A stretch of 64,000 bases of DNA from Oscillospiraceae bacterium (GTDB taxonomy: Bacteria; Bacillota; Clostridia; Oscillospirales; Oscillospiraceae). How positions within the stretch are numbered: the first letter of the stretch is position 1; the number at the start of each line of letters is the position of its first letter. The notes under the pieces were generated by a model that saw nothing but the letters and a program-made list of their open reading frames with translations, was not told the origin of the DNA and made no database searches. Below, piece after piece: positions 1-18,381 of this stretch. The stretch covers positions 1 to 64,000 of the forward strand of contig JAFWDU010000002.1 in the NCBI GenBank assembly GCA_017516005.1, written 5' to 3'. The position numbers and the translations under genes are program-made.

Positions 1-213
1 AAATGAAGGGTAAAAACAAGATTTCGTCAGTAGTTAATGAGTGAGGGAACTGAGGATGTCTAAGTTCGAAAACTAAGTAAATACAAGGGTTTCGGGCAAC
101 AAGGCGGGAGAGTACGGTCTCAAGGCCGCCCGCCGCGCTCCGCAGTTCAGCAAGCGCTGATTTCAAGTCAAGAACACCAAAAACCCTGGAATCTCAACGG
201 TTCCGGGGTTTTT
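1..213 (+). repeat. Element copy E1 (possible structured RNA or decayed short gene) with terminator
   Basis: Positions 1-160 align without gaps to 2783-2942 at about 70% identity. Both copies end in TGA followed by a rho-independent terminator. The best conserved block (97-160) contains GAGTACGG and CTCAAGG. GAACTG near 47 and CAGTTC near 147 could pair in both copies, which favours a structured RNA. In the other direction, many differences fall at third codon positions of a frame reading GNKxxEYGLK...PQFSKR, including an AGC/TCG serine swap. That frame has an in-frame TAA here and no start codon. I do not recognise the family; the raiA-type noncoding RNA is one thing to test. The left boundary may lie outside the window. 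Confidence 0.5.
179..213 (+). terminator. Rho-independent terminator of element E1
   Basis: Arms 179-191 and 201-213 pair as AAAAACCCTGGAA with TTCCGGGGTTTTT, with one U-G wobble and a nine-base loop. The stem runs into a T tract. Confidence 0.8.
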
Positions 214-232
214 CCATTCATATCTTCTGCTG

Positions 233-261
233 TTGACAAAAGTGCGGGGACAGCATATAAT
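233..261 (+). promoter_or_regulatory. Sigma-70 type promoter of the TetR operon
   Basis: TTGACA at 233-238 and TATAAT at 256-261 are separated by 17 bases. Both hexamers match consensus perfectly. It lies directly after terminator 179-213, so the operon is transcribed independently of E1. Confidence 0.88.
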
Positions 262-268
262 AATAGCT

Positions 269-292
269 GTTACATAACGATAATTATATAAC
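269..292 (+). promoter_or_regulatory. Inverted repeat, candidate TetR operator
   Basis: GTTACATAA (269-277) and TTATATAAC (284-292) form 9-bp arms with one mismatch around a 6-bp spacer. The site sits between the -10 box and the ribosome binding site AAAGGAGG (293-300), a position where a bound repressor would block transcription. Binding by the adjacent regulator is inferred. Confidence 0.5.
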
Positions 293-307
293 AAAGGAGG
301 ATCGCGC

Positions 308-872
308 ATGCCGCCAAAAACAAGAGTCACTGCGGAGATGATCCTTGATGCTGCTGTGGAAGTAGCCCGTCAAAGCGGTTTTGAGAATATCAATGCCCGG
401 ACGGTTTCCGGACAGCTGCACTGCTCCACTCAGCCGGTGATGTATCATTTCTCGACGATCGACAGCCTGAAGAAAGCCGCCTACAGGCAGGTTGATCACC
501 TGCATTCGGAATACATGATGAACACGCTTCCCGGACAGGATCCAATCCTTGGGATCGGCCTGAACTATATCCGCTTTGCCGTGGAGGAGCCGCAGCTGTT
601 CCGCTTCCTGTTTCAATCCGGATATGCGGAGGAGAACAATTTTCTGGAAAGGGGATTCCGAAGAGCTGATCCCGGTGCTGACGGCGATGCAGGAAGGTGC
701 CGGCCTGACCATGCAGAAGACCAGAAATGTATTCATCACTGTCGCGCTATTTGCCCACGGATATGCAAGCATCATCGCCAACAATCATTTGGAATTCGAC
801 GAAAAGCTGATTGCGCAACACCTTGAACGGACGTGGAACGGCGCAGTGTTCGCAGCGGCACAGGAGGAATAA
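308..872 (+). pseudogene. TetR/AcrR-family regulator, frameshifted
   Basis: The start ATG follows AAAGGAGG by seven bases. The first ~115 residues read as a TetR-type DNA-binding domain (helix-turn-helix about residues 8-50, with MYHFSTIDSLKKAAY) and the start of the ligand-binding domain. In the GGGG run near 651-655 the frame breaks. Skipping one base restores a second frame (EELIPVLTAMQEGAG...) that runs to TAA at 870-872 and completes a normal-length protein of about 187 residues. Either the gene is inactivated by a 1-bp insertion or this is an assembly or sequencing error. It is first in an operon with two flavodoxin-like genes and a CPBP protease, so it is presumably the local repressor. 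Confidence 0.75.
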
Positions 873-873
873 G

Positions 874-1362
874 ATGAAGGTCATCCTTTACGACCTGGGT
901 CCGGAGTACGAAGACCTGATCAAAGAAAAATGCGGCCGCGCGGTCGCGGCGGACGGGAAATATGCGCCCTGCCAGGGCTGCTTCGGCTGCTGGACCAAAC
1001 ATCCGGCGGAGTGCTTCATGAAGGACAAACTGCAGCAGATCTGCCGCGTGATCGGCCAGGCGGACGAACTCGTGATCGTCACGAAGAATCTCTATGGCGC
1101 GTACAGCGCCGCGGTCAAGAACGTTCTGGACCGTTCCATCGGGACCTCCACGCCCTTCAGCACCTACCGCGGCCGGCAGATGCACCATACGCTCCGTTAC
1201 GGAAAACACGATCTCTGGAAAGTGGTCGTTTACGGAGAAGTGAGCGAGGCGGAGAAGGCCGCGTTCCGCTGTATGGCTGAGCGGAACGCGGTTAACGACG
1301 GCTATGCGCGGTCCGAAGTCATTTTCCTGAAAGATCTTGCGGAACTGGAGGCGGCGTTATGA
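874..1362 (+). CDS. Flavodoxin-like protein with compact cysteine motif (iron-sulfur flavoprotein-like)
   Basis: The protein has 162 residues. The start is ATG at 874, one base after the regulator's stop, with AGGAGGAA upstream; a longer upstream reading frame is not needed. It contains a C-X2-C-X2-C-X7-C cluster at about residues 31-47 (core CQGCFGCWTK). This spacing is the compact cysteine motif known from iron-sulfur flavoproteins of the NADPH-dependent FMN reductase superfamily. A following segment, TKNLYGAYSAAVKNVLDRS, fits the flavin-binding loop of that fold. A redox role with FMN and possibly a 4Fe-4S cluster is inferred from family knowledge; substrate unknown. Its stop overlaps the next start (ATGA), indicating translational coupling. 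Confidence 0.7.
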   Translation: MKVILYDLGPEYEDLIKEKCGRAVAADGKYAPCQGCFGCWTKHPAECFMKDKLQQICRVIGQADELVIVTKNLYGAYSAAVKNVLDRSIGTSTPFSTYRGRQMHHTLRYGKHDLWKVVVYGEVSEAEKAAFRCMAERNAVNDGYARSEVIFLKDLAELEAAL

Positions 1363-2093
1363 AGACGGTACTCATCAACTGCAGTCCCAAAAAACGCTTC
1401 TGCGCTTCCGCATATTTCCTCTTTCTGCAGCGTCTCTTCGTCTGCGAGGAAAAAGTGAATGAAAAGCTGCGTACGCCCGCCGACTGCGCCCGCATTCTGG
1501 AGCAGCTCCGGGATGCGCAGGCGGTGGTATTCGGATTGCCGCTCTATGTGGATGGCGTTCCGTCCCACGTACTGCGCTTTCTGGAGGAGATGGAGGTCTT
1601 CTGCCGCGAGAACGGCTTGAAATTCCGCGTTTACTGCGTCGCCAACAACGGCTTTATCGAAGGAAAGCAGAACGAACCGCTGATGCAGGTCTTTGAAAAC
1701 TTCTGTGTGCGGGCAGGCCTTGCCTGGGGCGGCGGCGTGGGGATCGGCGGCGGCGTCATGCTGAACGTGACCCGGATCCTCTTTTTCGTGGAGATCGCGC
1801 TGCTGGCGCTCAATACCGTGCTGAGTGCGGTAAGTACCGGAAATTTCTTCCCGAAGGAAGCCTGGCTCAGTTTCGCCGAGAGTACAGCGTTGTTGCTGTA
1901 TTTTAACCTGGGCGTACTGTTTTACCTCTTTGGCATGGGCAGAGCAATAGGGAAGGGAACGGCTTTCGGCAAGAAATACACCCGTATCCTGATCCCTTCT
2001 TTTGTTTTCATCCTGTTTGCCGATATTTTTTTCACCATCATTTCTCTGCTGCAGGGCGGCATCTTCCGCGGATGGCTGGCAAAGAAAGAATAA
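1359..2093 (+). CDS. Flavodoxin-like domain fused to a three-helix membrane domain
   Basis: The protein has 244 residues and starts in the ATGA overlap with the previous gene. Residues 1-130 resemble NAD(P)H-dependent FMN reductases: VLINCSPKK at the N-terminus fits a phosphate-binding loop and FGLPLYVDGVPSHVL fits the flavin loop. Residues from about 135 to 240 hold three hydrophobic stretches (starting near ILFFVEIALLALN, ALLLYFNLGVLFYLF and ILIPSFVFILFADIFF), typical of membrane helices. A flavodoxin fold fused to a membrane anchor is not a textbook architecture. The fold could pass electrons to or from a membrane partner, but this is inference. It shares its operon with the cysteine-rich flavoprotein upstream and the CPBP protease downstream. 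Confidence 0.6.
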   Translation: MKTVLINCSPKKRFCASAYFLFLQRLFVCEEKVNEKLRTPADCARILEQLRDAQAVVFGLPLYVDGVPSHVLRFLEEMEVFCRENGLKFRVYCVANNGFIEGKQNEPLMQVFENFCVRAGLAWGGGVGIGGGVMLNVTRILFFVEIALLALNTVLSAVSTGNFFPKEAWLSFAESTALLLYFNLGVLFYLFGMGRAIGKGTAFGKKYTRILIPSFVFILFADIFFTIISLLQGGIFRGWLAKKE

Positions 2094-2105
2094 GGAGCCA
2101 TATCT

Positions 2106-2777
2106 ATGTTTGATTCCATAAAAAATGACAAGGTCAAGATCATTACACTCATCGGCATGGCTGTCATGCTCATCGCGGTCGCGGTCAAAGCCGCGACATC
2201 CTCCGTTATTGCCGCCGCAGTGATCCACATCGCGGGACTGGCAGGTTTCTTCATCATCGAGGGCATTGAGAAAACGCCCGATGCCGAATCCGGGCTCAGC
2301 TTCAAACGTTTCTTTTCGGATATAAAGAAACCGTGGGTCATCCCTCTGATCCTTTTCATGCTCGTATTGTCCCCCGCAGAAATCCTTCTGAGCAAGGCGG
2401 TGTTCGGCAGCGCCTATATAGACCATGTGCTGGGACGGGTAAATGTGCCCGGTCTTGATCAGCTTCTCCTGCTGCTGTTCAATCAGATCGTTTCTGTTCT
2501 CGGAGAAGAGATCGAATTCCGCGCGTTTTTTGTGGGAAAGGGCATGAAGCGCTTTTCGTTCTGGCCGGTGGCTATTGTCGGGGCTGTAATCTTTGCCGCA
2601 GCGCACTATGCCGCAGGCCCTGCCGGGATCGTTGCGTGGGACCTTGCCGGAATCTTTATCGACGCGATCCTTTTCGCGATCCTGTATCGCAGGACCGGCA
2701 ACTGCCTGATCAGCTTCATTCCGCATTTCCTCAACAATATGATTGGATTTTTCCTTGTGCCGATTCTGTTCGGGTAA
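2106..2777 (+). CDS. CPBP (Abi) family intramembrane metalloprotease
   Basis: This is a 223-residue hydrophobic protein with about six membrane segments. It carries the CPBP motifs: EExxxR (Glu134-Glu135, Arg139 in GEEIEFRA), a histidine in FAAAHY (His167) and a histidine plus Asn in PHFLNN (His207). Members of this family are Rce1-like intramembrane proteases, often linked to bacteriocin immunity or regulated proteolysis; the substrate here is unknown. Start ATG at 2106 follows AAGGAG by a short spacer and lies 12 bp after the preceding stop, so it is the last gene of the TetR operon. No terminator separates it from element E2, which starts five bases after the stop. Confidence 0.8.
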   Translation: MFDSIKNDKVKIITLIGMAVMLIAVAVKAATSSVIAAAVIHIAGLAGFFIIEGIEKTPDAESGLSFKRFFSDIKKPWVIPLILFMLVLSPAEILLSKAVFGSAYIDHVLGRVNVPGLDQLLLLLFNQIVSVLGEEIEFRAFFVGKGMKRFSFWPVAIVGAVIFAAAHYAAGPAGIVAWDLAGIFIDAILFAILYRRTGNCLISFIPHFLNNMIGFFLVPILFG

Positions 2778-2782
2778 AAAAG

Positions 2783-2997
2783 GCATGAAGAGTAAAAGCC
2801 GGTTTCAGACAGTAGTTAATTACTGAGGGAACTGATCGGGAGGACACCGAAAAAGCAGGTAAACACCTTGGCTTCCGGCAACAAGTCGCGCGAGTACGGC
2901 CTCAAGGTTGCACGTCGTGCCCCGCAGTTCTCGAAGCGCTGATTGCAGCTTCAAACAGTCAAAATGCTCCGGAACCATTGGTTTCCGGGGCATTTTT
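2783..2997 (+). repeat. Element copy E2 (possible structured RNA or decayed short gene) with terminator
   Basis: This is the second copy of the element at 1-213, at a constant offset of 2782 bases through position 2942 with no indels. Here the candidate reading frame is open from 2822 to the TGA at 2940-2942 (40 codons), ending ...EYGLKxARRAPQFSKR, but it has no ATG or GTG start. A 13-codon ATG frame (2785-2826) precedes it and has a counterpart in E1 (3-44). It starts straight after the CPBP gene and ends in its own terminator, just before the MerR promoter. Not identified. Confidence 0.5.
2961..2997 (+). terminator. Rho-independent terminator of element E2
   Basis: AAAATGCTCCGGAA (2961-2974) pairs with TTCCGGGGCATTTT (2983-2996) with one U-G wobble, ending in a T run. 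The design matches the terminator of E1. Confidence 0.8.
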
Positions 2998-3062
2998 ATG
3001 CCTGGATCTTAGAGAAACTGATACTATCAGCCAAAAATGAAAAAATCCCCCTGCGCAAGGTA

Positions 3063-3093
3063 TTGCTTGTTACGCAGCGTTATATTGTAGAAT
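3063..3093 (+). promoter_or_regulatory. Promoter with 19-bp spacer, candidate MerR-controlled promoter
   Basis: TTGCTT (3063-3068) and TAGAAT (3088-3093) are separated by 19 bases. A long spacer is the hallmark of promoters that MerR-type regulators activate by DNA distortion. The spacer contains an imperfect dyad, TTACGC-A-GCGTTA. Autoregulation by the MerR gene that follows is inferred. Confidence 0.5.
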
Positions 3094-3118
3094 AGATGAC
3101 GAAAGGAGGCAAAACGCT

Positions 3119-3844
3119 ATGCCAAAATATACGACGGGAGAGCTTGCAAAGCTTTGCGGCGTCACTGTCCGAACAGTTCAGTATTATGATACCCGCGGCA
3201 TCCTGATCCCCAGTGAGCTTTCCGAAGGTGGGAGACGGCTCTATTCGGAAGACGATCTGAAGCGCATGAAGATCATCTGCTTTCTGCGTGAATTAGATCT
3301 TCCGATCGACGCGATTTCTCAGATCCTGAAAGAAGAACATCCAGAGAAAGTAATCTCATTGCTGATCGAACAGCAGGAAAAATCTCTTTCAGATGATATC
3401 TCCAAGAAACAGGAAAAGCTGGAAAAGCTCCGCGAACTGAAAAACGGACTGAGTAGCAAAGCAGAATTTTCACTTGAAACCATCAGTGACATAGCGGTAA
3501 TCATGGAAGGCAAGAAAAAACTGAAACACATGCGCTGGATGATGATTCTGACCGGAACCCCGGTCACGGCGCTGCAATGGTTTTCCATCATTTTCTGGAG
3601 CGTCAGGGGCATCTGGTGGCCGTTCGTTGTCTGGGTGGTGACGGCTGCTGTCTGGGGCACACTGATCAGCCGGTACTACTTCAATCATGTGAAATACATC
3701 TGCCCGGAATGCCACGATATATTCAAACCTACACTGAAGGATGCGTTCTTTGCGAATCATACCCCGACAGCCCGCAAGCTGACCTGCACTTCCTGCGGTC
3801 ACAATGGTTTCTGCGTGGAGATCTGGGGAGGAAACGATAAATGA
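3119..3844 (+). CDS. MerR-family regulator with membrane helices and C-terminal zinc ribbon
   Basis: The protein has 241 residues; start ATG follows GAAAGGAGG. Residues 4-70 are a MerR winged-helix domain (TTGELAKLCGVTVRTVQYYD, then the GGRRLYSEDDL wing). Residues 75-115 are a charged coiled-coil-like helix as in MerR dimers. Two hydrophobic stretches at about 138-160 and 164-184 look like membrane helices, and the tail has two CxxC pairs (Cys195/198 and Cys223/226), a zinc-ribbon pattern. A MerR protein tethered to the membrane is unusual; it could sense a membrane or envelope signal. The gene overlaps the next one by ATGA, so the two products are probably made together. Confidence 0.8.
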   Translation: MPKYTTGELAKLCGVTVRTVQYYDTRGILIPSELSEGGRRLYSEDDLKRMKIICFLRELDLPIDAISQILKEEHPEKVISLLIEQQEKSLSDDISKKQEKLEKLRELKNGLSSKAEFSLETISDIAVIMEGKKKLKHMRWMMILTGTPVTALQWFSIIFWSVRGIWWPFVVWVVTAAVWGTLISRYYFNHVKYICPECHDIFKPTLKDAFFANHTPTARKLTCTSCGHNGFCVEIWGGNDK

Positions 3845-4680
3845 GCGCATTTGAAAATATCGTCATCGGCAAAAGCAGCATCCCGTCGCTGATCATTACG
3901 GTCATTCTGATGATCGCGATTCCCGTAATCTCTTTCCTTTACTGGCGCAAAAGGCATAAACAGCAGACAAGAATGAGCTGGCTCATTGCCGGCGCTGTCG
4001 GATTTCTTGTTTCCGCCCGTGTGCTTGAACTGGGCATTCATTACTTCTGCATCATTGCGGATAATCCCGTTTCCCGGTTCATTAACGGAAACACAGCAGC
4101 CTTTGTCCTTTACGGGATCACCATGGCCGGCGTTTTTGAGGAGTGCGGAAAACATATCATTCTGAAATATATTCTGAAGAAAAACCGTACCCGGGAAAAT
4201 GCGGTTCTGTACGGGATCGGCCACGGCGGAATAGAGATATTGGCAGTCATTCTGCCTCCGATGATCACCTATCTTGCTGTTGCTGTACTGTTTTCCCGGG
4301 GAGATACTGAAAACGCGCTCAGGACGCTGAATATCACCGAAGAAACAGCTGCAGCAGCGCTTCCGTCTGTTCAGGCGGCTGCTGCATTTCACTACGGGGC
4401 GATGGCTATGAACGTCATCGAGCGTTTGTTTGCGCTGCTGCTCCACATCGGGCTTACTGTCACCGTATATTATGGTGTCGTAAAAGTAAGAAAAGCCTGT
4501 CTGCCGATGGCGATCCTGCTGCATATGCTGATGGATACGTTCCCGGCGCTGTATCAGAGAGGTCTTGTGCCGCTGTGGAATGTTGAGGTATGGGCGTCTG
4601 TGTGGACTGTCGTAGTCGTGTTCATTGCTGTGAAGCTTTACAGGAAAATGAAATTGCCATCTCAAACCGAGAACGTATAA
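3841..4680 (+). CDS. YhfC-family intramembrane glutamic protease-like protein
   Basis: This 279-residue protein has about seven hydrophobic segments. Conserved-looking motifs are FEECGKH (Glu100, Glu101), GIGHGGIE (His128) and HMLMD near residue 225. They match the pattern of YhfC proteins, a PrsW/CPBP-related family of predicted membrane proteases. Its start lies in the ATGA overlap with the membrane-anchored MerR gene. A working idea is that this protease cleaves or senses together with that regulator; this is inference and the substrate is unknown. The operon ends at the terminator at 4752-4791. Confidence 0.75.
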   Translation: MSAFENIVIGKSSIPSLIITVILMIAIPVISFLYWRKRHKQQTRMSWLIAGAVGFLVSARVLELGIHYFCIIADNPVSRFINGNTAAFVLYGITMAGVFEECGKHIILKYILKKNRTRENAVLYGIGHGGIEILAVILPPMITYLAVAVLFSRGDTENALRTLNITEETAAAALPSVQAAAAFHYGAMAMNVIERLFALLLHIGLTVTVYYGVVKVRKACLPMAILLHMLMDTFPALYQRGLVPLWNVEVWASVWTVVVVFIAVKLYRKMKLPSQTENV

Positions 4681-4852: not shown

Positions 4853-5761
4853 CTATTCTACTTTTCGCTCCCTTGCCACAACTACGAATCGACCATCTTC
4901 TGTGTGATAATTGCATGTTGACAGTACAAGAATTGCATCTCCAAATTCAGCGTCTACTCCAGTATCATATAGTGCGGATTGTTTTACAAGACGAATATAC
5001 TCTTTGAATGTGTCCTCATCAGCCAGATCATAATACTCGTAATAACGAAATGCATTCTGGTATTCCTCATCGAGATAATAGACTTTGCTGAGGAACACCG
5101 CCATCACTTCATATTCGTGGCGTTCATGAAGGGTATCAAACTGAATAACAGGATGCTCTTTTTGATATGCAGCGTTCATATAAGGAAGAAGCTGACCAAA
5201 CATGGTTCCATTCTTCATATTATGACCATAGATCAGGAAATAGTTTTCATTCCCGGACCAGTTTCCGTCAAGAAATGGAACACCGCTGTTGGAATAAGTA
5301 CCGTCAAAAGCAAGATGCAGATAGTGTTCCGGCTCTTCCGGGGTGAAAACAACCGGATAATCAAACGCAGTTCCTTCAATGGATAGCCATCCAAAATAAT
5401 CTGGATTCAATTCATAGATAGGTTGATACTCAGGCAGAAGATCCTCCGTTGTGTTTTCCGGATCTACCAATGGTTCACTTGAGTGATCCTGCACTTCGTG
5501 CTCGATATTTACTGGTTCCTCTTCCCTTTGCATTCCAGATGCATCGATCGTTTCTTTTGGTGATTGGCTATTATTCTCAGATTGCGCATGACGTTTTATT
5601 GCTGCCAATTCCAGGAATGCGTTATTCTCATTTCTTGCCTGGATTAGTTCAGATGCCACCTTGTAACCGGAAAAACAAAAAATCCCAACAAACAGAATTA
5701 GTAGAATTGTAAGGATCGGGCTAATGCGGTGCTTCACACCGGAATGTCTTCCCTGATACAC
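4853..5761 (-). CDS. Class B sortase (second sortase of the pilus locus)
   Basis: A GTG start at 5761 follows AGGAAG at a good distance and gives about 302 residues; a longer frame to 5821 has no clear ribosome site. The N-terminus carries one signal-anchor helix (ILTILLILFVGIFCFSGY), then a charged linker rich in Glu and Asp. The catalytic domain has the sortase histidine in LIYGHNMKNGTMFG, the cysteine in LVLSTCNYHTEDG and the arginine in RFVVVAR. The ~300-residue length and spacing fit class B. It is the last gene of the pilus operon, separated from the upstream pilin by a terminator-like hairpin (5793-5829), so it may be expressed at a lower level. Likely role: pilin polymerisation or wall anchoring. 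Confidence 0.85.
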   Translation of the reverse strand: MYQGRHSGVKHRISPILTILLILFVGIFCFSGYKVASELIQARNENNAFLELAAIKRHAQSENNSQSPKETIDASGMQREEEPVNIEHEVQDHSSEPLVDPENTTEDLLPEYQPIYELNPDYFGWLSIEGTAFDYPVVFTPEEPEHYLHLAFDGTYSNSGVPFLDGNWSGNENYFLIYGHNMKNGTMFGQLLPYMNAAYQKEHPVIQFDTLHERHEYEVMAVFLSKVYYLDEEYQNAFRYYEYYDLADEDTFKEYIRLVKQSALYDTGVDAEFGDAILVLSTCNYHTEDGRFVVVARERKVE

Positions 5762-5792
5762 AACATCAAACTTCCTTTCGTGTGTCAAGTGG

Positions 5793-5829
5793 AAAATGCG
5801 GCGGCAGCAATATGCCACCACCGCATTTT
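5793..5829 (-). terminator. Terminator-like hairpin between pilin and last sortase
   Basis: On the minus strand AAAATGCGGTGG pairs with CCGCCGCATTTT, with one U-G wobble, and the stem ends in TTTT. Partial termination here would lower expression of the last sortase relative to the pilins. Confidence 0.55.
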
Positions 5830-5858
5830 AAGTCATAATTGCCTGATTGCGTCGGTGA

Positions 5859-6920
5859 TTAACCGCGCTGACGCTTTCTTCTGATAACCAGAATGGCGCA
5901 AATTGCTGCTGCACTGATAACAAGCAAAGCAATCCAAAGAATCAGATTCGTGTTATCTCCGGTTTTCGGAGTTGGGGTGACTGGCGGTCTAGGTGGTATA
6001 TCAATGCCACGATAGACATTCGTAAACACCGCTTTATCCACTTCATTACCAGTGGCATCCTGATATTCCACATCCACATAGACCTGATATCCGATAAGAT
6101 AAACCTGAATCGTCATGGTATATATCATCGAATCATAGCTGTAACTGGTATTATCACCGGGGATTTCGCGAATCGTATAAGTATAGGTACTGCCAGCATC
6201 AGATTCATAGAAATACATAGTGCCAAACTCATACTCGCCCGGTCCATATTTCGTCATATAGAGGGCACCTGTGTTTGAATCCACTTTTGCATCAGGATTA
6301 ATCGGCATTGGGGCACTAGGCTGATTTGGAATCATCACAAAAGTAAAAGGATCATTCGCTGGTGCAACACCGTTTCTGGAAGTAACGATCTTCTTCACAG
6401 GAGGATCATACGTGGTTGGAGGAATATAGGGTTTTTTATAAACGTTGTGGAACAAAGCAACGTCAACCTTATTCCCCTTATCATCTTCCAGAACAACAGT
6501 AGACGTGACAACATCATCTTCGTTAAGAATATATACGGTCAGTTTGTATGTCGTCTTGTCATAAGAAACGGCATATGGATCATTGCCGGGTAGTTGTGTA
6601 ATCGTATAGGTATAAACACCCAGTTCGGAGAAATCCAAGCTTAAATCAAATTTGCCGACACCTTTGACAGTTTTTTCATAAACGCCGTCGCTTGATCCTT
6701 CTGGAAGCGGCGCACCTGTACTTTCTGCTTCAACTTTAATTGTGACAGTGTCATTTTGACCAGGTCCTTCAATTGTAACCTGAACAGGAACCTTGACATT
6801 CAACACAGTCTCTGTTGAAGCAGTTTCTCCTGTTTCACCGTCAGCAGCATATACTGATACCGAAAGCAAAGACAACATCAGTAAAACTGCAAGGGTAAGA
6901 CTTACAATTCTTTTATTCAT
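5859..6920 (-). CDS. Spy0128/FctA-type pilin with sortase sorting signal
   Basis: The protein has 353 residues with a signal peptide (residues 1-25, ending SVSVYAAD). Two Spy0128-like beta-sandwich domains follow at about 40-165 and 175-310; each ends in a similar strand (VALFHNVYKK and KAVFTNVYRG). The C-terminus has TPKTGD, a hydrophobic helix and the basic tail RRKRQRG, a standard cell-wall sorting signal of xPxTG type. Spy0128-like domains often form internal isopeptide bonds. The start ATG follows an AGGAGGAG site that overlaps the stop of the upstream sortase gene. It is probably a minor or basal pilin; the order alone does not prove which. Confidence 0.85.
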   Translation of the reverse strand: MNKRIVSLTLAVLLMLSLLSVSVYAADGETGETASTETVLNVKVPVQVTIEGPGQNDTVTIKVEAESTGAPLPEGSSDGVYEKTVKGVGKFDLSLDFSELGVYTYTITQLPGNDPYAVSYDKTTYKLTVYILNEDDVVTSTVVLEDDKGNKVDVALFHNVYKKPYIPPTTYDPPVKKIVTSRNGVAPANDPFTFVMIPNQPSAPMPINPDAKVDSNTGALYMTKYGPGEYEFGTMYFYESDAGSTYTYTIREIPGDNTSYSYDSMIYTMTIQVYLIGYQVYVDVEYQDATGNEVDKAVFTNVYRGIDIPPRPPVTPTPKTGDNTNLILWIALLVISAAAICAILVIRRKRQRG

Positions 6921-18168: not shown

Positions 18169-18194
18169 ACAGACAATCGAAAGCAATCGTTTAT

Positions 18195-18360
18195 CGATGA
18201 TAGCGCACCACAAAGAATTGTGACAGTCCGGAAGATCTTTTCTTCCGGCCCAGTACCGGTTCTGCAGGCACATCACCGGCACTTCGGCGACATCCCCTTT
18301 CCCCTGCTCCTTGCTGCCTGGCACGGAAGCCGGTACTGATGAATATCGCGCCTCTATCTC
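18195..18360 (-). ncRNA. Lysine riboswitch (L box)
   Basis: Read 5' to 3' on the minus strand the leader shows the conserved L-box blocks in order: GAUAGAGGCGCGA, UUCAUCAGUACC, AAAGGGGAUGUCGCCGAAG, CUGGGCCGG, CCGGACUGUCAC and UGGUGCGCUAUC closing the P1 helix. These match the lysC-type lysine aptamer known from Bacillus subtilis. A terminator (18138-18168) follows, so lysine binding should switch the downstream ABC transporter off. Confidence 0.93.
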
Positions 18361-18381
18361 TATGCGATTCAGTTTGGCTGA

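Follow-up and report, generated by a model that had tools for sequence, protein, structure and literature searches.

The 3′ end of rpsI is a described target of mobile elements. In Macrococcus caseolyticus, the mecD islands (McRImecD) insert at the 3′ end of rpsI, carry a tyrosine integrase, and lie between imperfect repeats, 160-163 bp long and including the end of rpsI, with the native rpsI tail displaced (PMC5341023). ICEs with a tyrosine integrase target rpsI in Streptococcus (PMC4701971), a streptococcal IME at this gene has been designated IMESag-rpsI (PMC5704250), and a putative ICE, ICE_RhoA2-183_rpsI, occupies rpsI in Roseburia (PMC12904643). CIMEs, in turn, have no integration or transfer genes, keep their att sites and accrete in tandem with other elements (PMC5704250).

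Here we analyzed a 64,000-nt stretch of DNA from an Oscillospiraceae bacterium (the window), in which two similar stretches of ~160 nt had been noticed around a TetR operon. We consider it very likely that each copy is an attR-like attachment-site junction, in which an element arm is joined to the end of rpsI, and that the two copies bracket an integrase-less unit of ~2.8 kb. This arrangement resembles McRImecD in the insertion at the rpsI 3′ end, in the ~160-nt repeats that include the rpsI end, in the displaced tail and, in relatives of the window, in the tyrosine integrase. However, the McRImecD integrase is rpsI-proximal, whereas the integrases of the relatives lie at the far end, by an orphan tail, and the McRImecD islands measure 16-18 kb and include the integrase, while the window unit is only ~2.8 kb long and has none. 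The streptococcal and Roseburia elements share their target gene, rpsI, with the window unit, but ICEs and IMEs at rpsI are larger and carry transfer or mobilization genes, none of which was recognized in the window unit; nor does the unit have an integrase of its own, as an autonomous IME or ICE does. It resembles a CIME in having att-like sites on both sides, no integration or transfer genes and a tandem position with other units, although CIMEs are described as decayed (PMC5704250), whereas the units here are reshuffled and one of them is >99% identical in diverged hosts. Copies of the rpsI 3′ end are present at the junctions in the window, as expected of insertions at this gene, and the window is a clostridial member of the known class of rpsI-inserted elements.

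Organization of the repeats and of the unit between them

Positions 1-160 and 2783-2942 align over 160 nt without a gap at about 70-73% identity, and a search of the host genome with copy 2 recovered copy 1 at 73% identity (E = 8.9e-21) and no further stretch of comparable similarity, so the ungapped similarity of about 70% reported in the first-pass annotation is real. The window opens at the very first base of contig C2; the start of copy 1 is therefore an assembly break and not a biological boundary. In two relatives (L055 and L059), the identical end runs further upstream, into an alpha/beta-hydrolase gene. Each copy had also been described as followed by a terminator and a promoter for a regulator gene. 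GC-rich hairpins with a T-run (184-213 and 2963-2998; all features up to position 4680 are on the + strand) and a regulator gene do follow both copies, and the TetR operon has a promoter at 233-261 that matches the sigma-70 consensus at 12/12 positions, but no sigma-70 match was found on the + strand upstream of the MerR gene. Both hairpins were read directly from the sequence, a simple terminator scan having listed neither.

The second half of each copy, its last 51 nt (110-160 and 2892-2942), consists of the final codons and stop of rpsI, reading EYGLKxARRAPQFSKR overall and EYGLKAARRAPQFSKR and EYGLKVARRAPQFSKR in the two orphan ends, respectively. In a phmmer search of the PDB, a 26-residue query matched the uS9 C-terminus (E 0.0011), the best chains carrying ERKKYGLKGARRAPQFSKR, while a Pfam search with the 40-aa frame gave no match. 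Complete rpsI genes of relatives are mostly open frames of 135-142 codons that end likewise, in ERKKYGLKAARRAPQFSKR and a stop, and the identification of this half as rpsI is directly supported. The tail and terminator of the window also resemble the DNA that follows intact rpsI genes in relatives, namely in L043, L057 and L059 for the first copy and in L041 for the second, so that both hairpins are of the rpsI type. The match of window 2893-4670 to L041 begins inside the intact rpsI of the latter. Such tails are often present more than once: about 46 of the 300 sampled genomes of the family have two or more exact uS9 tails, as counted by eye and with only part of these tails checked for orphan status.

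The ~107 nt before the rpsI tail, which form the first half of each copy, are very probably a distal end of mobile-element DNA. When genome contigs were scanned with a first-half motif, nine loci were obtained in genomes of gut Clostridia, several from rumen or ruminant-gut samples, and this half was near-identical among most of them; a scan of viral contigs with the end motif gave no match. The end in copy 1 (1-109, type A, a distal arm beside the junction, cut on its left by the contig end) recurs in L055 and L059 with 100% identity over 112 nt, and in L056 and L058 with 98% and 94% identity, respectively; in L058 a tyrosine-integrase gene (PF00589, E = 1.7e-22) lies immediately upstream of it. 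The end in copy 2 (2785-2891, type B, the distal arm of the TetR-CAAX unit), taken with 24 preceding nt, matches L060 over 134 nt at 100% identity and L054 at 98%, with a partial copy in L040/L041. At most loci the shared arm gives way, around GAGTACGG, to a locus-specific rpsI tail and downstream sequence or terminators, and the exchange is placed within the TACGG...CAGTTC interval and no finer; the exceptions among the nine are L053, without a recognizable tail, L060, in which the tail is truncated, and L057, which ends within the arm. Direct repeats in pairs, of a kind that might serve as integrase arm sites, were clear and above chance in five integrase-bearing relatives but not in the ends in the window.

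The unit is thus flanked by rpsI-tail copies on its left (110-160) and, together with the type B end, on its right (2785-2942). It holds a TetR-family regulator (308-872), two cargo genes with FMN-reductase-like domains (PF03358; 874-1362 and 1359-2093, the second with a C-terminal hydrophobic region) and a CAAX (Rce1-like) membrane protease (PF02517; 2106-2777). Compared with its intact 188-aa counterpart in L059, the TetR gene is frameshifted by a 2-nt deletion near position 650, and it is a pseudogene or carries an assembly error. The next unit opens with a MerR-family regulator (PF13411; 3119-3844), which in L041 lies directly behind intact rpsI, and continues with a YhfC-like intramembrane metalloprotease (PF10086; 3841-4680); its right end was not found. 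Pfam searches gave no integration or transfer genes among the cargo of the TetR-CAAX unit, and the first 8 kb of the window likewise yielded no close integrase. The assembly to which the window belongs is 70% complete; neither rpsI nor rplM was found intact in it, nor was a close integrase, and therefore the array cannot be read from its start; a proximal intact rpsI is present in the relatives L041, L055 and L059. Downstream of the array, at 4853-6920 (- strand), ORF translations suggest two proteins, one of them sortase-like and the other a surface protein that has repeated domains and is anchored in the membrane by its C-terminus.

Exchange of units among genomes and the integrases of relatives

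A 1.5-kb unit with a single hydrolase gene is, past its own tail, 99.3-99.6% identical in L055, L057 and L059. The rpsI bodies of these genomes are far more diverged, with 63-65% identity between L055 and L057/L059 in a global alignment (72% over 361 nt by BLAST for L055 and L057) and 89% between L057 and L059. From this comparison, it would appear that at least one unit was recently transferred between hosts. No close integrase was found in these three assemblies, which is weak evidence as their completeness is not given. In a wider search with the hydrolase unit, the genome of the window held the type A end only, and four others gave weaker or partial matches. An improbable alternative, though the one that deserves most weight among those considered here, is that this near-identity is an artefact of metagenome assembly or binning, since the host genomes are uncultured and many contigs end at these tails. 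However, the sample series behind the contigs bear different names (RGIG sheep omasum and RUG), and in L055 and L059 the unit is continuous with rplM-rpsI on the left and with different DNA on the right. Such an artefact could in any case inflate the result for the hydrolase unit only, leaving the identity of the two copies in the window unaffected.

Units also occur in different combinations. The MerR-YhfC unit lies behind intact rpsI in G109 and G263 (88% over 1778 nt, from window 2893), and the TetR-CAAX unit lies behind an integrase-bearing element in G011 (86% over 2677 nt, window 110-2778). In L059 the order is rplM, rpsI, the hydrolase unit with a type A end, a tail and the TetR-CAAX unit; in both L059 and G011 the type B end is missing after the CAAX gene, a point against the junction reading. 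L057 has a LytTR/DUF3021 unit with another end type between rpsI and the hydrolase unit, and L061 has a single-gene M24 peptidase unit flanked by two tails. Several genomes have an intact rpsI and, kilobases away, an orphan tail on the same strand, and in L042, L123 and L124 the interval between the two is integrase-less. This exchange of neighbors at the rpsI tail is seen directly, and the sequences suggest that units have recombined among genomes with breakpoints there. The integrase-less interval in L123 (765-4500) holds a Fic-family gene (PF02661), and in L127 (693-1008) an intact rpsI and a second uS9 tail are 268 bp apart with no gene between them. In L158, L160, L161 and L162 we observed TetR and CAAX genes like the window cargo, without FMN-reductase genes and without nearby uS9 tails, indicating that such cargo also exists outside rpsI.

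Tyrosine integrases lie beside equivalent ends in relatives. When the L058-type integrase was searched for in 300 genomes of the family, matches were obtained in 33 genomes. A uS9 tail was present 75-275 nt past the integrase stop codon, on the same strand, at 22 of 25 loci with close integrases (L091-L115) and at none of five loci with remote ones. In full-length integrases, a SAM-like N-terminal domain accompanies the catalytic one, and a C-terminal stretch matches the Int protein of PDB 6emy. Where a contig held both an integrase-side tail and a second tail, the two lay between about 10 kb (G084) and more than 40 kb (G118, G149 and G144) apart. Several of the elements that carry an integrase at rpsI have two tyrosine-integrase genes in tandem, as in L130 (2265-4842) and L132 (3406-6033).

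Tandem segmental duplication or ordinary homologous recombination at rpsI, acting without a site-specific recombinase, could in principle use the ~50 nt of shared tail. It would leave unexplained the conserved arm that is not rpsI sequence and is placed behind integrase genes, and many genomes show sharp borders at one and the same place; we regard this explanation as quite unlikely.

RNA and protein readings of the repeats

The first-pass annotation had suggested that the repeats are either a structured RNA or a translated sequence, and we find both very improbable. A conserved structured RNA with its own terminator would fit the gapless conserved blocks and the terminator that follows both copies. 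Nevertheless, covariance-model searches of the two copies gave no relevant Rfam family, including any raiA-type RNA, at gathering or relaxed thresholds, and the consensus fold of ten ends had a covariation term of only -0.11 kcal/mol. The long-range GAACTG/CAGTTC helix that had been proposed crosses the recombination seam, with one strand in element DNA and the other in that of rpsI, and L056, L091 and L092 have lost it; moreover, the second half of each copy is rpsI coding sequence. The sole Rfam match in the window was a lysine riboswitch (RF00168, 97.9 bits) at 18193-18364 (- strand).

A small protein ending in ARRAPQFSKR was suggested by the last 16 codons, which differ between the copies mostly synonymously, but copy 1 has an in-frame stop and no start codon is shared, just as had been described, the frame before the tail varies with element type, and the synonymous pattern is inherited from rpsI and confined to its tail. 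The coding signature of the EYGLKxARRAPQFSKR frame is real, and belongs to the uS9 C-terminus in an orphan rpsI remnant. Among the changes in the rpsI part, which are otherwise synonymous, a single one alters the protein (Ala/Val), a pattern to be expected if the two rpsI ends differ in origin, and such a remnant explains the third-position and AGC/TCG changes, the absent start and the upstream stop. Frameshifting or readthrough from a short ATG frame at position 3 was also considered, and was dropped after the rpsI tail was recognized.

A possible route of insertion and its implications

Returning to the attachment-site junctions, we infer that integrases of the L058 type act on the rpsI tail as their site of recombination, and that elements bearing an integrase at this site carry, in cis or in trans, the units that have none. 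Most likely, a site-specific tyrosine integrase would join the attachment site of an element to the conserved rpsI end by recombination. With the tail and terminator brought in by the element, rpsI would remain whole, its previous tail would come to lie at the far end, and later insertions at a tail would build up a tandem stack of units. Units without an integrase may move via a related element acting on the same ends.

More tentatively, rumen and gut Clostridia may have an rpsI-based cassette system, in which integrase-free units are inserted in trans by rpsI-specific tyrosine integrases and pass between distant species. A unit in this sense comprises an rpsI tail with its terminator, between one and four genes, in many cases including one for a regulator, and the ~107-nt arm. 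Such units might, with some reserve, be likened to gene cassettes whose recombination site is the end of a ribosomal gene.

These results remove a candidate new RNA and put a testable mechanism in its place. The site is of a known kind, and the part worth following is how modular units without an integrase are shuffled in rumen Clostridia. In this family of Clostridia the end of rpsI is often occupied, and orphan ARRAPQFSKR tails provide an easy signature for small mobile units that annotation would miss. If integrase-free units are mobilized in trans, single genes could travel as minimal cassettes between distant gut bacteria.
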